Assembly: GCA_016866875.1 (NCBI GenBank)
Contig: VGKY01000003.1
Location: 32,708-96,707 of the forward strand
Direction: 5' to 3'
Source: Candidatus Peribacteria bacterium
GTDB taxonomy: Bacteria > Patescibacteriota > Gracilibacteria > Peribacterales > Peribacteraceae
Length of the DNA stretch: 64,000 nucleotides
The position numbers were made by a program, and so were the translations under genes. Position 1 is the stretch's first letter; each line of letters opens with the position of its first letter. The notes below the pieces were generated by a model, which ran no database searches, was not told the DNA's origin, and was given only the letters and a program-made list of their open reading frames with translations. Shown here one piece after another: positions 2,218-64,000 of the stretch.

Positions 2218-3255
2218 TTACTCCCACTCCACTCTCCCCAGATCCGGTACCACCGTCATCCATGTCGACCCTGCGGAAAACCGCAGCGGCTGGTTATGCA
2301 GATCAAAAAATGTCAGGCCCGTATCGAATCCTTTGCTCTGCCACGTACCGGGGATGGCATACCCCGAACGAAACAGTATCGCTTCTCCTTTTCCCTCTAC
2401 CGGAATCGTGAGGCGTCCGAATTCTCCGATTTCGGCAACGGGTATCTGAAGCACGAGAACGTTATGGGGCTGAAGTCCGCTGATGACGCCTCCGTTGATG
2501 CGCAGATAGGAACCGTCGGGCAAGCTTCTGTACTCCACGTTATGAAGAGAGCTCAAAAAACTTATATGGATCAGTGATGCGCCGGACGCAGATGCCGGAG
2601 GACCACCGGTCGGATACGGCGGCCAGGAAACAGCGTTTGTCTCTTCCGGTAAAAGTTTTTCCATCACCGCATCGGAAAGGAACAGATTGTGCGGTGCGGG
2701 GACGTCGTCACGTCGAAGTGCGTAGGTACCATCATCAAAATACAGAACATTCACCGTGGTCAGCGTATCGAAAACTTTGGCTCTTTCGAAGGCTTCCGGG
2801 CTTCCTCCCGCATGCAGGATCGCACCGAGCCATGGCTGTGAAGCATCGACAAAGTACGGCCTCAGCGAGCGTACGGGACCGACAGACGCAGGCAAATTCT
2901 TGCGATCAAAAAGGGCAAGGAACCGGGAGATCATCCCCTCTACCGGAAATTCCATGATGAAGAGTGCCTTTTCGAGTCCGGACTGATACGGTCGGGCATC
3001 CTCCTGATTCTCGATCATCACACCGATGATGCTCCGCTTTTTTTGTCCTTCGGGAAACAAACTGAGACGAAGAAGAAAACCGGGAGGTGCAAGGGAAAAC
3101 TCAACGGGCTTTTCCTCCGCAGTACTCCCAGACTCTTTTTGCAAAACAGGAAGTGTGGAAAAAATGCCAAAGAAGATGGCAACAAGCACCACTGCAAAGG
3201 TGATGGAGAGCGAAACGGCAATCGCGGGGGCAATACGACGCATAGCAATGTACAT
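2218..3255 (-). CDS. DUF3048 (YerB-like) membrane-anchored protein
   Basis: About 345 residues. One N-terminal membrane helix (AIAVSLSITFAVVLVAIFFG) is followed by an extracellular DUF3048 region: RSIIGVMIENQEDARPYQSG, then VGPVRSLRPYFVDASQPW and a C-terminal domain ending in PDLGRVEWE. This matches the two-part DUF3048 N/C architecture of Bacillus YerB, whose function is unknown. The frame is open further upstream, but that extension lies inside rplY and is an Arg/Pro-rich shadow. I use the ATG at 3255, preceded by a GGAGG-containing stretch in the end of rplY; an ATG at 3243 is possible. It is probably co-transcribed with rplY. Confidence 0.8.
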   Translation of the reverse strand: MYIAMRRIAPAIAVSLSITFAVVLVAIFFGIFSTLPVLQKESGSTAEEKPVEFSLAPPGFLLRLSLFPEGQKKRSIIGVMIENQEDARPYQSGLEKALFIMEFPVEGMISRFLALFDRKNLPASVGPVRSLRPYFVDASQPWLGAILHAGGSPEAFERAKVFDTLTTVNVLYFDDGTYALRRDDVPAPHNLFLSDAVMEKLLPEETNAVSWPPYPTGGPPASASGASLIHISFLSSLHNVEYRSLPDGSYLRINGGVISGLQPHNVLVLQIPVAEIGEFGRLTIPVEGKGEAILFRSGYAIPGTWQSKGFDTGLTFFDLHNQPLRFSAGSTWMTVVPDLGRVEWE

Positions 3256-3256
3256 C

Positions 3257-3952
3257 TTACTTCTTCTTCTCCTCCTTCTTGGCGGCTGCAGCATCGGCGG
3301 CTGGAGCTGCTGCACCTTCTGCGGCAGCACCCTCGGCACCCGGAGCTGCTGCTGCACCCTCGGCACCTTCCACAGGAGCGGCAACTTCCACCACCTCCTC
3401 CTCACGGGGCTCCTGGACAACCGCGAGCACCGTTTCCGTCGACTCCTTCACCTTCACGCCGGACGGCACCTGCAGATCTGCAACAGTCACCACATCATGG
3501 AATTCCTTAAGACCGGAGATACTGGCAATGAGTTCGTGGGGAAGATCCTTCGGAAGACATCGGACGGTAACGTGATCGTGTGCAACGACGAAGATAGCAG
3601 CGAGTTCCTTGATCGCCGGGGCCTCGCCCGCAAAGCGCACAGGCACCTTCGTCTCCACTTCCTTCGTCATGTCCACGGCGTAGAAATCCACGTGGGCGAT
3701 CTGACCGCTCAAAGGATCGAGATCCACCTGATGGATCAGGGCCGGCACATGGCGACTTCCCAGACGGATCTCCACGATGGAGCTCTCTCCGGCTTTGGTA
3801 TACACGCGAGTGATCTCGCCCTTATCGCATGCGAGAGACTCAGTGGCTACCCCACTTCCGTACACGACACAGGGCACCTTCCCGGCACCACGCAGTACCT
3901 TGGGCTTGATGCCTGCGGTTCGAGCCTCTGCTTGTAACGCAATCATTTCCAT
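3257..3952 (-). CDS. rplY: 50S ribosomal protein L25 (TL5/CTC form)
   Basis: A 231-residue long-form L25 that binds 5S rRNA. The N-terminal L25 domain (GKVPCVVYGSGVATESL) is followed by a TL5-type beta C-domain with the typical DPLSGQIAHVDFYAVDMTKE motif. The C-terminus is a long low-complexity Ala/Gly/Glu tail ending in KKEEKKK. Long Ala-rich tails are common in CTC-type L25 proteins. It is followed directly by the DUF3048 gene on the same strand. Confidence 0.95.
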   Translation of the reverse strand: MEMIALQAEARTAGIKPKVLRGAGKVPCVVYGSGVATESLACDKGEITRVYTKAGESSIVEIRLGSRHVPALIHQVDLDPLSGQIAHVDFYAVDMTKEVETKVPVRFAGEAPAIKELAAIFVVAHDHVTVRCLPKDLPHELIASISGLKEFHDVVTVADLQVPSGVKVKESTETVLAVVQEPREEEVVEVAAPVEGAEGAAAAPGAEGAAAEGAAAPAADAAAAKKEEKKK

Positions 3953-4060
3953 TGCCGGTAGAGCCTAAAGGAGGGCAAGGGGGCGGTCAACGAGATTGAG
4001 TAGTTTGCGGAGGATGCAAACAGAGCGCAGGTTCTGGGTAGCCTGTAACCCCACAACCTT

Positions 4061-4816
4061 TTACCGCATAGGAGTTGCCTTATCCCTCCATTTCCAAAAG
4101 TACTTCATAGCGCTCAGGAGATGCGCGCGCCCTACGCGAGTACCAAGAAGCGAGAATACCCCACCCTCGCTCAATCGACGCTGACGATCGGCAACGGCAA
4201 CGGTTGGATAGTAGTGCACACGCTTTCCCCGCAACCAACAGCGCCGGCAGAGATCTATGTCTTCGAAGAAGAGAAAGAAACGATGGTCAAACCCGCCGAG
4301 GTCTTCAAAGAAGGCTCGCCGCATGAGTACACAACCCCCCGCCACCCAATCGGTATCGCGCTCCTGATCGGGGCTGATGTCGGACTGGAGATAGCGCTGC
4401 ACACGATGGGGAAAGAGCCTTCCGAGAACGGTGCGATTGGCAATCACGTCTATGGGTAGAGGAAAACGCCGGGCGGAGAAGCGCGCCGACCCATCTGGAA
4501 ACTGGAGCTTCGGTGCAAGGATGCCAATGTCTGGCTCTGCCTCCATCTTCCCCACCAATGTCTCCACTGCCGAAGGCGGGAGCATCTTCACGGGATTGTT
4601 GATGAGGATATAGGTGCCACAGGCGACGCGTGCACCCGCAGCATACCCACCACCAAATCCGAGATTGCGTGACGTCTCAACGATCTTCACCCGGGAATCT
4701 CCCGGCAACTGCCTTCGCAAGATCCCGATGCTGTCGGTGTCGGAGTGGTTGTCGACGACGATGACCTCCAGCCGGTCACCGATGGTCTGGGCAAGCAGCG
4801 CCCGGACACATGCCAA
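4061..4816 (-). CDS. Family 2 glycosyltransferase
   Basis: A GT2 enzyme of the rhamnosyl/WcaA-like group: LEVIVVDNHSDTDS (nucleotide-binding strand), SRNLGFGGGYAAGARVA, DWVAGGCVLMRR and FFLFFEDIDLCRR. It would transfer a sugar from an NDP donor to a surface polysaccharide. The annotated TTG start loses the first beta strand. In-frame codons upstream read PIVSAIVLSYRSPRDTLACV, the missing GT2 N-terminus, but between that and the upstream stop there is no ATG/GTG/TTG; ATT at 4868-4870 is the nearest candidate. The usual DxD region reads INNPVKM, without the canonical aspartates, so activity is uncertain. Heptamer repeats fill the divergent gap with uvrC. Confidence 0.8.
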   Translation of the reverse strand: MACVRALLAQTIGDRLEVIVVDNHSDTDSIGILRRQLPGDSRVKIVETSRNLGFGGGYAAGARVACGTYILINNPVKMLPPSAVETLVGKMEAEPDIGILAPKLQFPDGSARFSARRFPLPIDVIANRTVLGRLFPHRVQRYLQSDISPDQERDTDWVAGGCVLMRRAFFEDLGGFDHRFFLFFEDIDLCRRCWLRGKRVHYYPTVAVADRQRRLSEGGVFSLLGTRVGRAHLLSAMKYFWKWRDKATPMR

Positions 4817-4869
4817 TGTGTCGCGTGGACTGCGATAGCTCAGAACGATGGCGGAGACGATGGGCTGAA

Positions 4870-4952
4870 TACAAGGAGAAGGTAGAAAGTAGCAAGGAGC
4901 AGTGCCATGATTGTATGCGTAGCTACATGCTACCTGCTACCTACTACTTTCG
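4870..4952. repeat. Heptanucleotide-period repeat between GT2 and uvrC
   Basis: Units related to CTACNTN repeat with a 7-base period on both sides of the divergent promoter gap (for example GCTACAT, GCTACCT, GCTACCT, ACTACTT in 4921-4950). The repeat runs into the first codons of uvrC (MLPATYY) and probably into the start region of the GT2 gene. Confidence 0.6.
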
Positions 4953-7086
4953 CTGTTTGGACAATCCACACCTCCCCTCCCTTCGCAAACGCATCGCCAA
5001 GGCTCCGACATCGTCAGGGGTCTATCGCTGGAAAAACAGCAAGGGCGAGGTGCTGTACGTCGGCAAAGCGGTGAACCTCCGGGAGCGCCTGAGGAACTAC
5101 GTCGCGACAAAGGCAGATAAAGGTCTCGGACCATGGAAGCTTGCCCTGAGAAATCACCTTGCGGACGTTGACTGGACCCTGACGAATTCCGAGCTCGAGG
5201 CACTCATCCTTGAAACGAACCTCATCAAGGAAATCCGTCCGCGCTACAACGTGATGATGAAGGACGACAAAAATCACGTGTACGTCGAAGTGACGGTGAG
5301 CGACCCCTGCCCATCCATCGATGTCGTGCGGCAGATGAGCAATGCCAAGGCACGCTACTTCGGCCCCTTTCTCACCGCGTGGGAAGTGCGCCGCAGCCTG
5401 GAACTCTTGCAGCTGCTCCTGAGTTTCCAAGCATGCAAACGGGGACTGGAGAGATGCAATAAAGAAGCTCATCGCTCGCTATCCGCTACAAACCCTCCGA
5501 AGCCCTGTCTCGAGTACCAAATCGGCAAATGCAACGGACTCTGCATTGGCGCACTCACTCCCGAGGAATACTGCAAGCGCATCGATGCCGTCATGGATTT
5601 TTTCAAGGGCAACCGTGGAGCAGTTGCCATGAAAGCGCGCGAACTCATGGCACAGGCTGCTCAGGAAAAAAAGTTTGAGCGTGCAGGAAAACTCCGTGAT
5701 GCCCTTGCGTTCATTGAGCACCAGAAAGAGGGACAGATCGTCTCCGACCCGCACGGCAAAGACCTCGACATCATCGGTATCGCTCTCAGTACCGCACGGG
5801 CGCAGGCGGTTGCGCTCCGTGTCCGCGACGGCAAGCTCATCGGCGAACAGCTCTACCCGCTCATCGGGCAGCCAGAGAGCGTCACCGAGGCACTCACGGG
5901 ATTTCTTCCGCAGTACATAGAAGTGCAGACGTCCCTGCCCGCTGCACTCATCGTCCCGGAAGAATTTCCGGATCGCACGCTACTGGCCAAGCTTGCTACG
6001 GAGCGCACGGGGCGAAGGGTAGACATCATCGTCCCCGAACGTGGGAAGAAATCGCATCTCCTGGAACTCGCGATGCACAACGCCGAGGAGAAGCTCCGGG
6101 CGCAGGAAACCGCATGGGAGAGCGCTGCACGCAATCTTGAAGATGCGCTCAAAGAGCTGCAGGAAGCCCTCGCTCTTCCCTCTCCTCCCAAGCGGATCGA
6201 AGGCTACGACATCTCGCACCTCGGCGGAACCGAAACGGTCGGCAGCATGGTGGTAATGCAGAGCGGCAAGCCAGCGAACAAAGAATACCGATCGTTCACA
6301 TTGCGCACCGTACGGGAAGGAGAGATCGACGACTACAAATCCCTACGGGAAGTACTGCGCCGAAGACTGCGGCACCTTGTCGACGAACGAAAGCAGTGGG
6401 AGGAAAAGGGAGTGACAATCGGCAAAGCTCTCAAGAAAGACCGGGCAACCATCGCAACGATGCTCCCATGCGAAAACAGCAAGGAGCTCGCCTGCATCGT
6501 GGCACGGGAAAATGATCACCTCTGCGGCTGCGGCAGACTTGTAGAACTCGAGAACAAGGTCATCGCACTCGAGCCTTTGTGGATTGCCGAGGAATACCAA
6601 AAAGAGCGCCTGTGGTTCACGCTCGCACGATCGCTCCTCTCGACGCTGAAGAAAGGCAAGATCTACGCTGTAGCAACGCCGGAAACCCATGACGCACTCA
6701 ACGAGGTAGGCTTCCTGGATATCGATCATCCGCCGCCATGCATCAAGCACATGGGCAAAGCTACATCCATCCCGATGATGATGGAAGCACAGCGAAGCAA
6801 GCCCGACGCATCGCTCTGCGAGCGCCCCGACCTGCTCGTCATCGATGGAGGCAAGGGGCAGCTCAGCGCCGCACGCGATGCGATGCAGATCATCGGCATA
6901 GAACTGCCTGTTCTTGGCCTAGCCAAAAAACAAGAGGAGATCTTTGTACGGGGGAAAAAAGACCCCCTGATCCTTCCACAGGAATCCCCTGCAAAGTATC
7001 TCCTGATGCGACTGAGAGACGAAGCACACCGATGTAGTAACGCGCACAGAGAAAAGAGACTGAAGCGCAGAGTGCTGGGTGCGTGA
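4927..7086 (+). CDS. uvrC: UvrABC excinuclease subunit C with inserted GNAT-like segment
   Basis: UvrC makes the dual incisions in nucleotide excision repair. The GIY-YIG nuclease is clear (SGVYRWKNSKGEVLYVGKA), as are the Cys-rich loop (CLEYQIGKCNGLC), the UVR motif (EKKFERAGKLRDALAFIE) and the RNase H-like domain (EGYDISHLGG, DDYKSLREVL, DLLVIDGGKGQLSAA). Between the last two sits about 140 extra residues (about 490-630) resembling an N-acetyltransferase fold. The C-terminal HhH pair is missing: the protein stops soon after LRDEAHR. I use the ATG at 4927; an upstream extension to 4810 overlaps the GT2 gene and is not UvrC-like. Expected to work with UvrA/UvrB encoded elsewhere. Confidence 0.93.
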   Translation: MLPATYYFRCLDNPHLPSLRKRIAKAPTSSGVYRWKNSKGEVLYVGKAVNLRERLRNYVATKADKGLGPWKLALRNHLADVDWTLTNSELEALILETNLIKEIRPRYNVMMKDDKNHVYVEVTVSDPCPSIDVVRQMSNAKARYFGPFLTAWEVRRSLELLQLLLSFQACKRGLERCNKEAHRSLSATNPPKPCLEYQIGKCNGLCIGALTPEEYCKRIDAVMDFFKGNRGAVAMKARELMAQAAQEKKFERAGKLRDALAFIEHQKEGQIVSDPHGKDLDIIGIALSTARAQAVALRVRDGKLIGEQLYPLIGQPESVTEALTGFLPQYIEVQTSLPAALIVPEEFPDRTLLAKLATERTGRRVDIIVPERGKKSHLLELAMHNAEEKLRAQETAWESAARNLEDALKELQEALALPSPPKRIEGYDISHLGGTETVGSMVVMQSGKPANKEYRSFTLRTVREGEIDDYKSLREVLRRRLRHLVDERKQWEEKGVTIGKALKKDRATIATMLPCENSKELACIVARENDHLCGCGRLVELENKVIALEPLWIAEEYQKERLWFTLARSLLSTLKKGKIYAVATPETHDALNEVGFLDIDHPPPCIKHMGKATSIPMMMEAQRSKPDASLCERPDLLVIDGGKGQLSAARDAMQIIGIELPVLGLAKKQEEIFVRGKKDPLILPQESPAKYLLMRLRDEAHRCSNAHREKRLKRRVLGA

Positions 7087-7091
7087 GTCGC

Positions 7092-7652
7092 TTACGCCGC
7101 ATCGATATCATGCCCCCTCCTCTGGTAACGCGTGACGACGTCAGCGATGGCGGAGGCTACATGTGCTGCATGCGGTACGTAGCGCAACTTCACGGCGTCT
7201 CCCCCGAGCCCCTCTTTCAAATGCAACGTGAGCGAGCCGAAGGGAAAGAGATTGAGATACTGGGTAGCGGAGCTCACCCCTCCGACGTTCTCGAGGTGAA
7301 TCGGCTTCTCCTCATGCCGGATAAAAGACGTCTGATCCACAAGCACAATCTTCTCCGTCGTGACGAGGAACATATCGTAGCGCCAGTCGATGAACTCCCT
7401 AAGCACGTGGAAGAAGACGAACACCAGCCAGAGCAACACTGACCCGGCGATGATCTCGTAGAGCGGCCACTCGTACTTCCACGCGAGAAAGATGACCCCA
7501 AGGAAGACGGCAGTGATCATCATTTCCCGCACGGACTTAAAAACGAACGAGAGCCAATGGTACCGCGTCAGCAGCACTTCCTCTTCACCTTCCGTGCAGT
7601 AGCGCTGACGGATCTTCTGGGCGATGTTCGTATCGAGTGCAAAGAAACGCAT
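7092..7652 (-). CDS. Membrane protein with bacterial PH-like domain
   Basis: About 186 residues starting MRFFALDT. Two adjacent hydrophobic helices (REMMITAVFLGVIFLAW and IIAGSVLLWLVFVFFHV) are followed by a small beta-rich domain (DMFLVTTEKIVLVDQ, GGVSSATQYLNLFPFGSLTL) typical of the bPH2/DUF304 families. These are membrane-anchored PH-fold proteins of unknown role. The longer frame to 7730 is mostly upstream non-coding sequence, so the ATG at 7652 is preferred. It is convergent with uvrC, with 5 bases between. Confidence 0.78.
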   Translation of the reverse strand: MRFFALDTNIAQKIRQRYCTEGEEEVLLTRYHWLSFVFKSVREMMITAVFLGVIFLAWKYEWPLYEIIAGSVLLWLVFVFFHVLREFIDWRYDMFLVTTEKIVLVDQTSFIRHEEKPIHLENVGGVSSATQYLNLFPFGSLTLHLKEGLGGDAVKLRYVPHAAHVASAIADVVTRYQRRGHDIDAA

Positions 7653-8702: not shown

Positions 8703-9686
8703 ATGGACATCCAGCGCACAGCGGCGGCGATCATGGCGGATCCTCATGCAAAGGAGGCAAGCCTGCGGCAGATGAACATGCCGTGGTTCATGACGCCATT
8801 TTTTCCCACGCTTGTTCAAGAGTCTCACCTCAGTGATGCCGATCGCGCGCTCGTTGAAGCATTTGCCCAAGACGGGTACGTGGTAGTCGATGCAGAGATT
8901 CCCAATCGCGATGCACTGATAGCACAGATGGTTGCCACACTGCATCCGATGTTCCGGGGTAGCAACCGGATTCAGGATGCATGGAAGGACAATGCAAACG
9001 CGAAGACCCTTGCGACACTGCCGCACATCGACCGCATCTTGCGGCTGCTCTACCAGCGAGACCCCATCCCCTTTCAGACCCTCAACTTCGCCCACGGCAC
9101 AGAGCAGCACACGCACAGCGACACGATCCATTTTCACTGCATCCCCCATCACTTCATGTGCGGTGTGTGGATCGCACTGGAAGACATCGATACCTCGTGC
9201 GGCCCACTCCACGTCTACCCGGGCAGTCACAAGATGCCCGCCTGGGACTTCCATGATCTCGGGCTCCCCTCCGGCAGGGAGTCCTATGCGCGCTACGAAG
9301 ACTGTATGCAGGCCTACGTGGAAGCAACCGGCATGCGCAAGCACATCGTGACCATGAAGAAAGGGCAAGCAGCGATCTGGGCGGCCACTCTGCTCCACGG
9401 TGGTGAGAGCATTACCGATGCGTCACGCACACGCCACAGCCAAGTGACGCACTACTATTTTGAGAATTGCCTCTACTACACGCCGATGCACTCCGATCCC
9501 TACATCGGAAAAATGCACCTGCGAAATATCACCGATATCCGTACGGGGCAACTTGTCCCCAATCGTTATGCAGGGAAAACCATCAGCGCCATCCCCGAGC
9601 CAGTGAGTCCTGTGCAGAGCGCTACCCTGGCCTCGAAGCATGTACTAAAAAGACTGCTGGCAAGAGCGAAGAAGACGCTGCAGTGA
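8703..9686 (+). CDS. Phytanoyl-CoA dioxygenase (PhyH) family oxygenase
   Basis: A 327-residue Fe(II)/2-oxoglutarate-type oxygenase. The double-stranded beta-helix carries HTHSDTIHF (His and Asp iron ligands of the HxD type), GVWIALEDIDTSCGPLHVYP (a PhyH signature) and a distal His in LLHGGESI. The substrate cannot be inferred; bacterial PhyH proteins hydroxylate lipids, amino acids or small metabolites. There is no signal peptide, so it is cytoplasmic. A TATACT hexamer about 14 bases before the ATG suggests a very short leader. Confidence 0.85.
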   Translation: MDIQRTAAAIMADPHAKEASLRQMNMPWFMTPFFPTLVQESHLSDADRALVEAFAQDGYVVVDAEIPNRDALIAQMVATLHPMFRGSNRIQDAWKDNANAKTLATLPHIDRILRLLYQRDPIPFQTLNFAHGTEQHTHSDTIHFHCIPHHFMCGVWIALEDIDTSCGPLHVYPGSHKMPAWDFHDLGLPSGRESYARYEDCMQAYVEATGMRKHIVTMKKGQAAIWAATLLHGGESITDASRTRHSQVTHYYFENCLYYTPMHSDPYIGKMHLRNITDIRTGQLVPNRYAGKTISAIPEPVSPVQSATLASKHVLKRLLARAKKTLQ

Positions 9687-9693
9687 GGAACCA

Positions 9694-10359
9694 TCACTCC
9701 GCACTCTTTCTCTTAAACCAATTCGCCGGGTGTCCGGTTCGTCTCTTCCAGTACAACCACGCAAGGACCATGCCGACTCCTCCGACGATGATCACTTTAA
9801 AGAACGTTTCAGCGGTGTCGATCCCCTGCATGAGCGACTCTGCGGCGGAAAGACCCGTATAACCCATGAGCATGAAGAAGAGGCTGCGGAGGTAAAACCC
9901 GCCATAGGTGGCCAGGAGAAATGTCCGCATGCGGATCTTGAGGATGCCGCAGAGCAGGGAGATCGGCGTCGATGGCATCACGGGAATCGCGCGCAGAAAA
10001 AGCAGCGTGAGCTCATCGCGGCTCGTGCCATTGAAGCGCCCGCCGAAGTGCTCGAGATCTTTGTGACACACCCCGATATACTTTCCAAAACGGGGAACGG
10101 CGAGATCCTCAAGTTTGTCGCCAATGACATAGAAGATCCAGGCACCGAACGTCTTGGAGAGGGTGGCAAGCGCGCAGATCCAGAGGAGATAGGGAATGCC
10201 GAGCTCCTGCGTGAGAACGATGCTCCCCGCGAGCGTGGAGACGAGCGGCGACGGAATCGGCGCGATGATCTCTTCGATAACGCCGCCGACCGTCACATAC
10301 AGGGGCAATGGTACGGTCTGCGCCATGTGCGTGAGCCACGCGATGATCCCTTCAAGCAT
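9694..10359 (-). CDS. DedA/VTT-family membrane protein
   Basis: A 221-residue protein of the SNARE-associated (VTT) superfamily. An N-terminal amphipathic segment is followed by VIEEIIAPIPSPLVSTLAGS, the conserved E-x3-P-x-P re-entrant loop. The second loop RAIPVMPSTPISLLCGIL has the expected FLRAIP motif, and membrane helices follow to the basic C-terminus. DedA proteins are lipid scramblases/flippases, including for undecaprenyl phosphate. It is convergent with the PhyH gene. Confidence 0.85.
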   Translation of the reverse strand: MLEGIIAWLTHMAQTVPLPLYVTVGGVIEEIIAPIPSPLVSTLAGSIVLTQELGIPYLLWICALATLSKTFGAWIFYVIGDKLEDLAVPRFGKYIGVCHKDLEHFGGRFNGTSRDELTLLFLRAIPVMPSTPISLLCGILKIRMRTFLLATYGGFYLRSLFFMLMGYTGLSAAESLMQGIDTAETFFKVIIVGGVGMVLAWLYWKRRTGHPANWFKRKSAE

Positions 10360-60197: not shown

Positions 60198-61281
60198 GTG
60201 GAAGAGCTCCTCAGAAAACTCCGGGAACTCCAGTCAGCCCTGCACACGGGAAAGGACTCTCTTTGAGGGCAAAGGAATTCCCAAGCGCATCGCAGAGCTC
60301 ACCGCTCGCACGGAGGACTCTACGGTGTGGAACGACCAGCGTGAGGCCAACCGCCTCTTTGGCGAGCTCAAGACGCTGCGCAAACTGTGGGACCCCATTA
60401 CGCATCTGGAGACGGAGCTACATGATCTCCTGGAGCTGACAGAACACGCCTCCCCCATAGACCTCATGGATCTCGAGAGAGAGGCCGCAAAATTGGAAGG
60501 GCAATGGAAGCAGCTCGAGTCGCAGCTCTACCTTTCCGGGGAATTCGATGCGGGTCACTGCTACCTCACGATCTCCGGAGGCGCCGGCGGTACGGAGGCC
60601 CAGGACTGGGCGGCGATGCTCCTGAGGATGTACCTGCGCTACTGCGAGAGAAACGGATGGAAGACGGAGCTCGTCGACAGGACCGACGGTCAGGAAGCTG
60701 GTATCAAGTCCGCCTCGGTCTACGTGGAAGGACCCATGGCCTACGGGTATCTCAAATGTGAGCGCGGAGCGCATCGCCTCGTGCGTCTCTCGCCGTTCAA
60801 CGCGAAAAACCTTCGCCAGACAAGCTTCGCACTCGTCGAGGTGCTCCCCGAAATCGCGGAGGCTGAAGTGGCGATCAGCGCGAGCGAACTCAAGATCGAC
60901 ACATTCCGAAGCGGCGGTGCGGGCGGGCAGAACGTGAACAAGGTGGAGACTGCCGTGCGCATCACGCACCTACCGACGGGGCTCGTGGTTGCATGCCAGA
61001 GCGAACGTTCGCAACTGCAAAACCGCAACCGCGCGATGGCGATGCTGCGGGCCAAACTCCTCGAAAAGAAGCACGCCGAAGATGCGGCAACCAAGAATGA
61101 GCTCAAGGGCGCTACGCAGAGCGCGGACTTCGGGCAGCAGATCAGAAGCTACGTGCTGCACCCCTATCAGATGGTGAAAGACCTACGGACGGAGGTGGAA
61201 ACAAGCAATACACAGGCAGTGCTCGACGGAGATCTGCAGGAGTTTATCGATGCCGAGCTTAAGCGCCTTGCAAAGACGTAG
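60198..61281 (+). CDS. prfB: Peptide chain release factor 2, programmed +1 frameshift
   Basis: Two frames joined by a +1 shift. The first runs from a GTG at 60198 ([20 protein letters not shown]) to CTT TGA at 60261-60266; skipping T60264 continues as GAG GGC ([18 protein letters not shown]). An AAGGA stretch sits just before the site, like the SD-like element in other prfB genes. Total about 360 residues. The RF2 anticodon tripeptide SPF ([12 protein letters not shown]) and catalytic GGQ ([19 protein letters not shown]) are present. RF2 terminates at UAA/UGA; the in-frame UGA gives autoregulation. Confidence 0.93.
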
Positions 61282-61329
61282 CCCACAAAGCACTCAAGGT
61301 GTGCTTCACATGTGTACTTGCGACCGAAA

Positions 61330-61360
61330 AAAACGGGGCCCCTTACAGCAACCCCGTTTT
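61330..61360. terminator. Terminator between prfB and the histone gene
   Basis: A 9-bp stem AAAACGGGG (61330-61338)/CCCCGTTTT (61352-61360) gives T- and A-runs on both strands. It serves the convergent prfB and histone genes. Confidence 0.8.
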
Positions 61361-61379
61361 AAAGAACCATTGCAGATGC

Positions 61380-61550
61380 TTACAGATCACACGGGCGAAC
61401 CGTCTTGCGACCGTTGTCACCGGCGCGCTTGACTGCGGCCTCGAGAGCGTCCTCGAGGAACGCGCTTGCGGACTCCGCGAGGTCACCGGCGGCCATCATG
61501 TTGTGCTTCTTGATGAGCTCTTTGATCTTCGAAGCGACGACGTAGGACAT
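61380..61550 (-). CDS. Bacterial histone-fold protein
   Basis: A 56-residue protein, too short for usual ORF cut-offs. It reads MSYVVASKIKELIKKHNMMA, AGDLAESASAFLEDALEAAV and KRAGDNGRKTVRPCDL. The central long helix and the end RKTVRPCDL match the histone fold (compare GRKTIKAEDI in archaeal HMf). The length corresponds to minimal bacterial histones such as those of Bdellovibrio, which lack part of the last helix. It is expected to bind and compact DNA as a dimer. It stands alone, facing prfB across a terminator; the start ATG at 61550 follows a GGGGATAAAGG leader. Confidence 0.75.
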   Translation of the reverse strand: MSYVVASKIKELIKKHNMMAAGDLAESASAFLEDALEAAVKRAGDNGRKTVRPCDL

Positions 61551-62221
61551 GGGGATAAAGGGGAAGGAAGTAGACGGGCAGATAGTACCAGCGCAAATCG
61601 CCCCTGCAAGCGAATAATTGCCGTCAAATGGTGAATTTGTCTTATCAAAAGCAATTGACGAAATAGACTTTTTGCAAGGAATTATGCTGCAAAACGCCGA
61701 TCCGCCCTATTGTCCACTAAAATCTTCTGGCGGTGTGCGCTGGAAAAAATACGAACCGATTTCGCCCAAAATTTGTAGGGCGGGCGGCATTCCTCCCAGG
61801 CCCTCCTTCCGCCCGCCCGCAGAAGTGACCCTTTCGGATTGGACGATTTCAGGTTTTTCGTTCCGCTTTTAGCGGAGAACTCTAGGCTTCGCCCAGTTTG
61901 GCGGCAAATTCTTTTCTTTAACGTTTCGGCGTATGCGATATCCAGCACCAGTAAAATGTGCCCCGCGGAGTGAAACGAAGTGGGGCCTACTGGTGCTGGA
62001 TATGGGAGAGGAGGTGGTGCATCCACTTGCCCTCCGTAGCTTCTTGACGGCTATAGCACGGAGTGCGACGGCTGTTAGCGAAGGAGGGTTGAATCCTTGC
62101 GCCACCGACGAACCGCATACGCCGTGTTGTATGACCGTTCCGTTTATTGGTTGGGGGGAAAACACTCAAAACAACAAGAACACACATGGATTGGTTGCTG
62201 ATTATTGCGTATCATTGAGAC
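61551..62221. other. Gene-poor repeat-containing region, AT-richer than flank
   Basis: No supported gene in about 670 bases. It contains a Cys/Arg-rich spurious frame, several inverted repeats (see 61937-62003) and an element at about 62027-62085 with arms CCTCCGTAGC and GCGAAGGAGG. It marks the border to the AT-richer lipid-gene segment. Confidence 0.6.
61937..62003. repeat. Long inverted repeat ATATCCAGCACCAGTA
   Basis: A 16-bp perfect stem (61938-61953 with 61988-62003) encloses a second GC-rich stem GCCCC/GGGGC. It would form a large hairpin. No terminator T-run follows. Confidence 0.8.
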
Positions 62222-62851
62222 ATGCAAGAAAAAGACCATTTGCACCAGCTGCATGCATTTTCTGCCAATGAAGCTGCATTTCAGCATTCCTTTGGTACCT
62301 GGAGGCAGAAAGTATTTCTGCCATTACTCAAAATTTTGGATAGAGCCAATGTCAGCCCAGACGCACTTTCGTTGCTGGGGATACTGGTGATGTTTTTACT
62401 GCCTCTCGGTTTTTTGTATTCACCGGTATTCCTCATATTGGCATATGTGCTTCACTTATTCTTAGATGGAATAGATGGAGCATTGGCTCGTCACAAGGGG
62501 ATTGCTTCTCAGCGGGGAGCATACTTGGACGTTGTCGTTGATCATGCGTCATTGGTAGCCACAGTACTGACATTGCAGTGGTTTGGATTGGGGGGGAGCT
62601 TCTGGTTGCTGCTCTATAGCATTTGCTACCTCATCTTGGTTGTACATTTTGTGCTGATGAATGCACGAGGCAACCCACCTACTTTCCCTGTCATTCGTAC
62701 AAAATATCCGCTGTTTTTGCTGACAGTACTGATTGGTTTTGGATTGATACAGACAGTATGGCTTGAATGGTTTTTGATGGTTTTTGCGCTCTACTACGCA
62801 GCAATGGTTGTTATTTATCTTGTTCTTTTTCGATGGAGTCTCCCCTCATGA
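62222..62851 (+). CDS. CDP-alcohol phosphatidyltransferase
   Basis: A 209-residue integral membrane enzyme. The family signature DG-x2-AR-x8-G-x3-D-x3-D is complete (DGALARHKGIASQRGAYLDV then VVD). Five to six helices follow. It would transfer a polar headgroup to a CDP-activated lipid. It overlaps by 4 bases (ATGA) with the CarS-like gene, so the two probably supply and use the same CDP-lipid. Base composition is clearly AT-richer than most of the window. Confidence 0.9.
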   Translation: MQEKDHLHQLHAFSANEAAFQHSFGTWRQKVFLPLLKILDRANVSPDALSLLGILVMFLLPLGFLYSPVFLILAYVLHLFLDGIDGALARHKGIASQRGAYLDVVVDHASLVATVLTLQWFGLGGSFWLLLYSICYLILVVHFVLMNARGNPPTFPVIRTKYPLFLLTVLIGFGLIQTVWLEWFLMVFALYYAAMVVIYLVLFRWSLPS

Positions 62852-63351
62852 TAGTACTGGCTGATGCGATTCTGACGTATGTTCCTGCGTACTTTGGCAA
62901 CATGATGCCCCCTATTGCCGGTGCACTTAAATTGCCGCTTGGGTATGCCATCGCGCCTACAAAGTTGGGGAGAAATAAGACATACAGAGGCATATATTCT
63001 GGAGTGATAGGAGGAGTATTGGGCAGCTGGTTGTTATGGTCATTGCAATGGGGGTGGTATGGAACACAGTCTTTATCGCTATCCATCATTGCCGGAGGAC
63101 TGATGGGATTTGGCGCATTAGCAGGAGATGCCGTGAAATCAGGGTTCAAGCGATGGAAAAACATTCCATCGGGAAAACCGTTTGTGCCATTCGATCAATT
63201 GGATTTCATCTTAGGGGGTAGCCTCTTTGCGTATATCGTGATGCCAATACCTTGGGAAATATTGCTGACCGCACTGATTATTACACCCCTCTTACATCTG
63301 CTTGTGAATATTCTGGCATACCATTTAAAGCTAAAGAGTGTATGGTGGTGA
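62848..63351 (+). CDS. CDP-archaeol synthase-like (CarS/DUF46) membrane protein
   Basis: About 167 residues with four to five helices. It has ILTYVPAYFGNMMPPIAGAL (start typical of CarS: NxxP), APTKLGRNKTYRGIYSGVIG (G-x-NKT-x-RG), GFGALAGDAVKSGFKRWKNI (GD..KS..KR) and the signature VPFDQLDFILGG. In archaea CarS makes CDP-archaeol from CTP and a diether phospholipid; bacterial members act on unknown lipids. Coupled to the CDP-alcohol phosphatidyltransferase. The ATG at 62848 is chosen for the overlap. Confidence 0.85.
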   Translation: MIVLADAILTYVPAYFGNMMPPIAGALKLPLGYAIAPTKLGRNKTYRGIYSGVIGGVLGSWLLWSLQWGWYGTQSLSLSIIAGGLMGFGALAGDAVKSGFKRWKNIPSGKPFVPFDQLDFILGGSLFAYIVMPIPWEILLTALIITPLLHLLVNILAYHLKLKSVWW

Positions 63352-64000
63352 GATCGCGTTGAGCCGTCGGTTCAATCTCGAACACTTTGTGCTGGTATGC
63401 ATACCGATGCCACTCCCGCTTCATGCAAAATTCACTGAATGTCGTCCACCCTGTGTAGAGCAGGTGTCTCAATGAAAAACACTGTGAAGGAACATGAACC
63501 GAATCAATCGTCTTATTCGTAATAAGTGCCTGAAATGCCTCTGTGCGATTTGGCTGTGGTTTGGATGTTGGAATATCAATGTAGAAACCAAGATCTCGCG
63601 GATGATGAGCATCTGATCCGATTGCATAAAATGCATGCTCTCCATTTTTCACAAGTGACTGTGAAAGTCGTACGCTTTCGCACAGCTTCTTTTCAACATT
63701 GTGCAGCCATGTCCAAGGCATGTACTCGAAAAATTTTTCCAGTAGAAGATAGCATCCATTTTGCATTTCAAAGGCTGGTACCTGTCTCAAAAATTCCAGC
63801 ATTTTCTCTTCGCTGGGGAATAGTTTCTTGAGCGGATTGCCGGTGAGAAACGGATGAGGAACGAACCATTGCAGATCGGAGTCCCGCAGGTATGCAAGCA
63901 TTTCCGATACATTCATAGCGAATGGTTTGAGTAGCATAGGATGATCGTCGTACCAGTCGTGTTCTGCGAATGCGATTATCTCAATGCCCTTTCCTTCATT
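63281..64000 (-). CDS. PHP-domain phosphoesterase-like protein, 5' end outside window
   Basis: The frame stays open to the right edge: beyond the ATG at 63937 it reads GIEIIAFAEHDWYDDHPMLL, so the true N-terminus lies outside. PHP metal-site motifs are AEHDWYDD, WFVPHPFLTGNPLKK and AIGSDAHHPRDLG. The family includes phosphoesterases and polymerase-linked exonucleases; the substrate here is unknown. Its 3' end overlaps the convergent CarS-like gene by about 70 bases, which is unusual. AT-rich like its neighbours, it probably belongs to the same acquired segment. Confidence 0.8.
   Translation of the reverse strand, partial: NEGKGIEIIAFAEHDWYDDHPMLLKPFAMNVSEMLAYLRDSDLQWFVPHPFLTGNPLKKLFPSEEKMLEFLRQVPAFEMQNGCYLLLEKFFEYMPWTWLHNVEKKLCESVRLSQSLVKNGEHAFYAIGSDAHHPRDLGFYIDIPTSKPQPNRTEAFQALITNKTIDSVHVPSQCFSLRHLLYTGWTTFSEFCMKREWHRYAYQHKVFEIEPTAQRDLTTIHSLALNGMPEYSQADVRGV

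Follow-up and report, generated by a model that had tools for sequence, protein, structure and literature searches.

The pair of lipid genes near the end of the 64,000-nt stretch of DNA analysed here (the window) is very probably carried as cargo by a gene cassette that belongs to a chromosomal, integron-like element of Peribacteraceae, an element with an IntI-related recombinase, an attI-like site and tandem cassettes carrying structured attC-like sites. We observed its anatomy and conserved polarity, the co-occurrence of sites and recombinase across the phylum, strong covariation within the sites, and a cassette common to two genera. The genome (G000) is a Peribacteraceae (CPR/Patescibacteria) draft of 1.12 Mb, 98% complete and in 36 contigs, and the window is the terminal 64 kb of its 96.7-kb contig C3; because the contig ends where the window ends, the downstream part of the lipid cassette is absent. 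The features discussed below are as follows.

61911-62137, + strand: attC-like site of 227 nt, scoring 120.5 bits with covariance model R1, whose training set includes this site.
62129-64000, no strand assigned: body of the cassette, running to the contig end; the whole cassette measures about 2.2 kb in locus L034 (1158-3392).
62222-62851, + strand: CDP-alcohol phosphatidyltransferase, 209 aa (PF01066, E 3.7e-12).
62848-63351, + strand: CarS-like CTP:lipid-phosphate cytidylyltransferase, 167 aa (PF01864, E 1e-29, full length).
63281-64000, - strand: PHP-like metallophosphoesterase gene, C-terminal 239 aa, with its start beyond the contig end.
1821-2624 of locus L057 on contig C20 of the same genome, strand not given: IntI-related tyrosine recombinase.

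The original prediction had read the gene pair as a complete CDP-alcohol transferase overlapped by a CarS-like gene, and the domain matches listed above bear out both identifications, as does the ATGA overlap between the 3' end of the transferase gene and the likely CarS start at 62848. The translated transferase has a complete DxxDGxxAR-x8-GxxxDxxxD motif, in common with the archaetidylinositol-phosphate and phosphatidylinositol-phosphate synthases that are its nearest curated models, but it scores far under both cut-offs (54 bits against an equivalog cut-off of 180 for NF040950, and 47 bits against 170). It also matches PDB 5d92 (E 2e-6). The CarS-like protein is homologous over its full length to CarS of Aeropyrum pernix (ApCarS, PDB 5guf; E 1e-12), both proteins bearing the signature GDxxxSxxKR...DQLD, and the residues that are invariant among 15 CarS homologues are also present in 5guf. 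It differs from the archaeal enzyme in staying below the archaeal equivalog cut-off (PRK04032, 123 bits with a cut-off of 148) and in not being surrounded by an archaeal lipid pathway.

CarS occurs in 15 of the 74 genomes of the family, and a transferase lies within 1.4 kb of it in all 15, mostly adjacent and on the same strand. The coupling of the two enzymes that had been proposed is thus borne out, and the two form an accessory module whose members always occur together. Only the copies in the window and in genome G015 belong to a recognised array, the other 13 of the 15 lying outside one, and a search for CarS on phages or plasmids gave no match. Fusions of transferase and CarS in two relatives (L026 and L032) were considered and rejected, as the fused frames have no PF01066 match and the extension in L032 reads out of frame.

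Searches of G000 for CdsA, PlsC and GGGPS gave no match, and genuine CdsA was found in none of the 74 Peribacteraceae genomes; 13 PF01148 matches in the family were rejected as CdsA, since all 13 coincide with CarS genes. With PlsC, CdsA and GGGPS absent from G000, the pair probably serves headgroup exchange on scavenged lipids by way of a CDP-lipid, in agreement with the headgroup modification first proposed. CarS would form the CDP-lipid from CTP and a scavenged lipid phosphate, the transferase would swap CMP for a polar alcohol, possibly inositol phosphate, and the headgroup may then be trimmed by a neighbouring phosphoesterase, which is PHP-like here and Exo_endo_phos-like in other genomes. 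Among the 74 genomes, CarS was the only lipid enzyme of the CTP-transferase type that we saw, and four genomes carry a PlsC-type acyltransferase.

The third gene of the cassette converges on the 3' end of CarS and overlaps that end. Its product, which is 90% identical to a protein in L034, has TEHA/AEHD and GSDAHHP motifs; the assignment to PHP is weak because the gene in the window has no Pfam match of its own, and a homologue beside CarS in L021 matches PHP_C only weakly (E 0.002). The predicted structure (pLDDT 34) was too poor for use. Phosphoesterases recur beside CarS, as PHP-like proteins in the window, L034 and L021 and as an Exo_endo_phos-type cluster in L019, L025 and L030.

The GC content of the lipid-gene segment is 45.1%, as compared with 55.9% (sd 3.0%) upstream, and none of 1216 windows of the same size is as low, so that the segment is indeed AT-richer, as had been noted. 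The 670 bases of repeats said to precede the gene pair could not be recovered: a repeat search of this region returned a single 16-nt inverted repeat but no direct ones, and what stands there instead is the single 227-nt folded site. This site has 56% GC and is continuous with the sequence on the prfB side. Following prfB is a 56-aa ORF (61381-61551, - strand) with a histone-fold-like sequence (MSYVVASKIKELIKKHNMMAAGDLAESASAFLEDALESAVKRAGDNGRKTVRPCDL), its match to PF00808 (E 0.019) falling under the cut-off. No known RNA family in Rfam matched positions 61200-64000.

The site contains an AAC core (61920-61922) and a GTTT spacer, followed by an 11-bp stem (CGGCGTATGCG/CGCATACGCCG) that encloses inner hairpins, and then a GTT core (62126-62128). 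It is the distal site of an array, and its + strand in the model is the equivalent of a canonical attC bottom strand. Across 74 sites from ten arrays outside the family, 96.4% of the cells are paired, and two-sided changes are found in 28 of the 35 pairs; none of 500 shuffles paired as well, and sliding one partner reduced pairing to 31-48%. The alignment was fitted to the model, a procedure that favours pairing, but the two-sided changes are far above the slid controls. Pairing is maintained despite free sequence variation of the arms, and this holds for inner hairpins distant from the cores as well. The site thus preserves pairing rather than sequence, as attC does. In Peribacteraceae sites (alignment A1), the loop of the first inner hairpin (about 61950-61965 in the window) has a conserved TGTATAATTTGCC resembling an extended -10 box, and could be a promoter inside each site.

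A close relative of the lipid cassette was found in STB_185 (G015), a Peribacteraceae genome that genome classification places in another genus, on contig C19 (L034/L028). Positions 62103-64000 of the window match L034 1132-3033 with 91.3% nucleotide identity over 1.9 kb; the homology sets in at 62103, still within the site's 3' end, and continues to the contig end. The L034 copy is flanked by sites on both sides, the next one starting at 3393, and is one of several cassettes in an array of six sites (123-247, 555-689, 1022-1157, 3393-3527, 3869-3994 and 7189-7319) that ends on the right with a tyrosine recombinase (8992-9804). Besides the PHP-like/transferase/CarS cassette, this array carries genes for an Mrr-type endonuclease, for an antitoxin-like protein, and for a cation-efflux protein accompanied by two DsbA-like proteins. 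CarS and the transferase are oriented against the canonical direction of cassette genes. Between the two genomes, the recombinases are 53% identical in amino acids, as against 91% nucleotide identity for the cassette, a contrast that argues for horizontal acquisition. The original prediction had also proposed such acquisition; what it missed is the vehicle, an integron-like cassette array. We infer from the copy common to the two genera that the cassette has moved.

The left site bodies of the shared CarS cassette differ between the two genomes, as do those of another shared cassette (L062/L103), and in other cassette comparisons the site and about 130 nt move as one. Several sites resemble chimaeras of two half-sites with mismatched left and right stem arms (L113 8470-8619, L103 3102-3259, L067 8292-8446 and L112 619-1229). 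Neither the differing left bodies of the CarS cassette nor these chimaeras would be expected from plain capture of cassettes. Exchange within sites, through homologous recombination or through another cleavage position, may take place. Further arrays with about a dozen sites were found in L213, L214 and L216. Contigs C9, C56 and C97 of genome G061 end at or inside a site, as would follow if assembly had broken at the near-identical sites within a single long array.

The spread of the element was examined with two models, R1, built from 13 sites and used for calling sites in place of the attC model of IntegronFinder, and A3, a profile of 14 family recombinases. R1 sites occur in 15 of the 74 family genomes and, beyond the training range of R1, in 62 of 379 genomes that sample the phylum evenly. 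A3 scores were bimodal: 52 of the 379 genomes exceeded 195 bits, and other tyrosine recombinases reached at most 165. Sites and recombinase co-occurred strongly (40 genomes with both, 12 with the recombinase alone, 22 with a site alone, 305 with neither; p = 1.6e-27), also outside the family (p = 1.7e-25); in the 22 of the 62 site-bearing genomes just mentioned no recombinase was detected. The element is also present in G376 and G199, each of which is assembled as a single contig.

Polarity was uniform. In the 23 genomes from outside the family with sites and recombinase on one contig, every one of the 57 nearby sites is located 5' of the recombinase and on its strand; one extra site in G199 lies 180 kb from the recombinase. 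Cassettes outside the family have a median length of 793 nt; 42 of 51 have complementary ends, and in 49 of 57 the longest ORF is directed away from the recombinase. Within the family, 49 of 69 ORFs point away from it (p = 6e-4).

A scan of contig C20, which carries the recombinase of G000, found no site, so that array and recombinase are on separate contigs in this genome. The recombinase gene is near the start of C20, in the orientation expected if the end of C3 and the start of C20 form one array, and the two contig ends are presumably joined in this way. Beside the recombinase gene, at 2-1597 of L057 (- strand), is an AT-rich ORF for a helicase of the Schlafen type (PF09848), which is probably carried as a cassette. 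A common, unscored box of AAC followed by TATACGAA-type repeats, recognised by eye just upstream of the family recombinases, resembles an attI site. Closely related recombinases (L166, L168, L173 and L175, from G248, G119, G208 and G381) come from different CPR families, and one of them belongs to another class; this distribution suggests movement of the element, or of its recombinase gene, between lineages.

Both by sequence (165 bits) and by fold, the best PDB match of the L034 recombinase is IntI4 of V. cholerae (2a3v); the predicted structure is of moderate quality (pLDDT 76, pTM 0.49) and served for fold ranking only. The two proteins share the catalytic core and an SPL at the C-terminus, but the alignment omits chain residues 183-240 of 2a3v, the region of the integron-specific insert. 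The distance from the KDR box to LRHSFATH is 73 aa in all CPR recombinase rows examined, as compared with 115 aa in IntI1, and the matches to TIGR02249 leave profile positions ~178-237 unmatched, none reaching the 265-bit cut-off. All examined CPR recombinases are thus, to judge by their sequences, without the I2 insert. A tree of 51 proteins placed the CPR recombinases, three IntI and six CPR Xer proteins in three groups; with its three IntI rows and long branches, it is compatible with I2 absence being ancestral as well as with loss. The closest plasmid recombinase, from a Chryseobacterium plasmid (L205; 40% identity), is also without I2, and several weak R1 matches (16-18 bits) lie in intergenic gaps downstream of it (2776-6195).

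The arrays share many traits with chromosomal integrons (of Vibrio and Xanthomonas, and the archaeal ones described in passages of PMC9668308): tandem cassettes, structured sites, an IntI-related recombinase diverging from the array, an attI-like site beside it, complementary cassette ends, and ORFs mostly directed away from the recombinase. They differ in their CPR hosts, in sites that span about 90-230 nt, fold in a branched manner and often have an unbroken outer stem, and in a recombinase without the I2 insert that defines IntI. Of the criteria for an integron, at least two structured sites within 4 kb are present in L034 (six) and in L213, L214 and L216 (about a dozen); a tyrosine recombinase (PF00589, E ~1e-45) heads the array and is linked to sites in the 23 non-family genomes; and, by inspection, an attI-like site lies beside the recombinase gene. 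An IntI-specific I2 domain near patch III is absent, making the element an integron variant rather than a strict member. Integron integrases are held to descend from an Xer-like recombinase that gained the I2 helix (PMC7790495), a helix reported from no other protein and required for capturing cassettes from single-stranded sites (PMC7790495), and surveys, according to passages of PMC9668308, recognise IntI by the I2 region. The CPR proteins share with XerA, XerC and XerD the tyrosine recombinase fold and the lack of I2, but form a separate group in the tree and are linked to cassette arrays.

These resemblances bear on an alternative that we consider unlikely, namely that an Xer-type recombinase targets the sites as double-stranded, Xer/dif-like palindromes, the arrays being tandem integrations of mobile modules and the folding a by-product of the inverted repeat. 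The missing I2 helix and a resemblance of the recombinase to XerA as well speak for it, as does the outer stem, which in 33 of 58 sites is an unbroken 11-bp inverted repeat; no canonical-like bulge was identified, and an asymmetry of the GTTT and T spacers is common. However, the free variation of the arms with pairing kept, inner hairpins included, favours a structural reading over sequence-specific duplex binding; the cassettes are integron-like in being mostly of single-ORF size, polar and complementary at their ends; and the CPR recombinases group apart from the CPR Xer proteins. It is very unlikely that the AT-rich contig end comes from another organism through an error of assembly or binning. 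The GC shift does coincide with the last 1.9 kb of a draft-assembly contig, but the site, with its 56% GC, is continuous with the sequence on the prfB side, the same layout recurs inside long contigs and single-contig genomes elsewhere, and G000 also holds a recombinase with an AT-rich neighbour on C20.

Ordinary horizontal transfer of the CarS/transferase pair, with the neighbouring hairpin unrelated, would suit the 13 of 15 family pairs that lie outside recognised arrays; we hold it to be highly improbable here, because the homology between genera already includes part of the site's 3' end, and because sites flank the L034 cassette on either side. Scarcely credible is the remaining reading, part of the original prediction, in which the pair belongs to archaeal-type membrane synthesis in a CPR bacterium: the CarS homology fits it, but G000 has no GGGPS, the matches in relatives cover only the C-terminal part of that profile and were taken as generic TIM barrels, and the CarS score stays under the archaeal equivalog cut-off. 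Lacking PlsC, CdsA and GGGPS, G000 points to headgroup swapping rather than to such synthesis.

In the integron-like element that we favour, the recombinase would act on sites at AAC|GTT and join the resulting ends to attI, and cassettes would by this joining be captured and shuffled; recombination, like the activity of the enzymes, is here predicted from sequence. Several observations weigh against this reading: the missing I2 insert, the differing left site bodies and the half-site chimaeras, the separate contigs of array and recombinase in G000, the reversed orientation of CarS and the transferase, the 22 genomes with a site alone, the fitting of the covariation alignment to its model, and the recognition of the attI-like box by eye. 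Without the I2 insert, the recombinase would have to read the folded sites in another way or act on double-stranded palindromes. We put the chance at about even that there is a CPR-wide integron lineage whose recombinase acts on folded single-stranded sites without I2, as an ancestral pre-I2 state or as an independent solution. In excerpts of the open PMC literature on bacterial and archaeal integrons (PMC9668308, PMC9024848, PMC8352920) and on CPR defence systems (PMC12259885), we found no description of such integrons in CPR bacteria, and searches across the open PMC set returned none of any integrons in CPR. Our results suggest that surveys requiring an IntI-specific domain would miss such elements.

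With arrays across the CPR, conserved folded sites and an I2-less recombinase, the transition from Xer to IntI becomes directly testable. CPR bacteria with their small genomes would gain a mechanism of gene exchange, with a cargo that includes enzymes of lipid headgroups, a restriction endonuclease, thiol oxidoreductases and a protein for cation efflux. An I2-less integron lineage, if this reading is true, would be a dedicated gene-capture platform for these streamlined, host-dependent bacteria.
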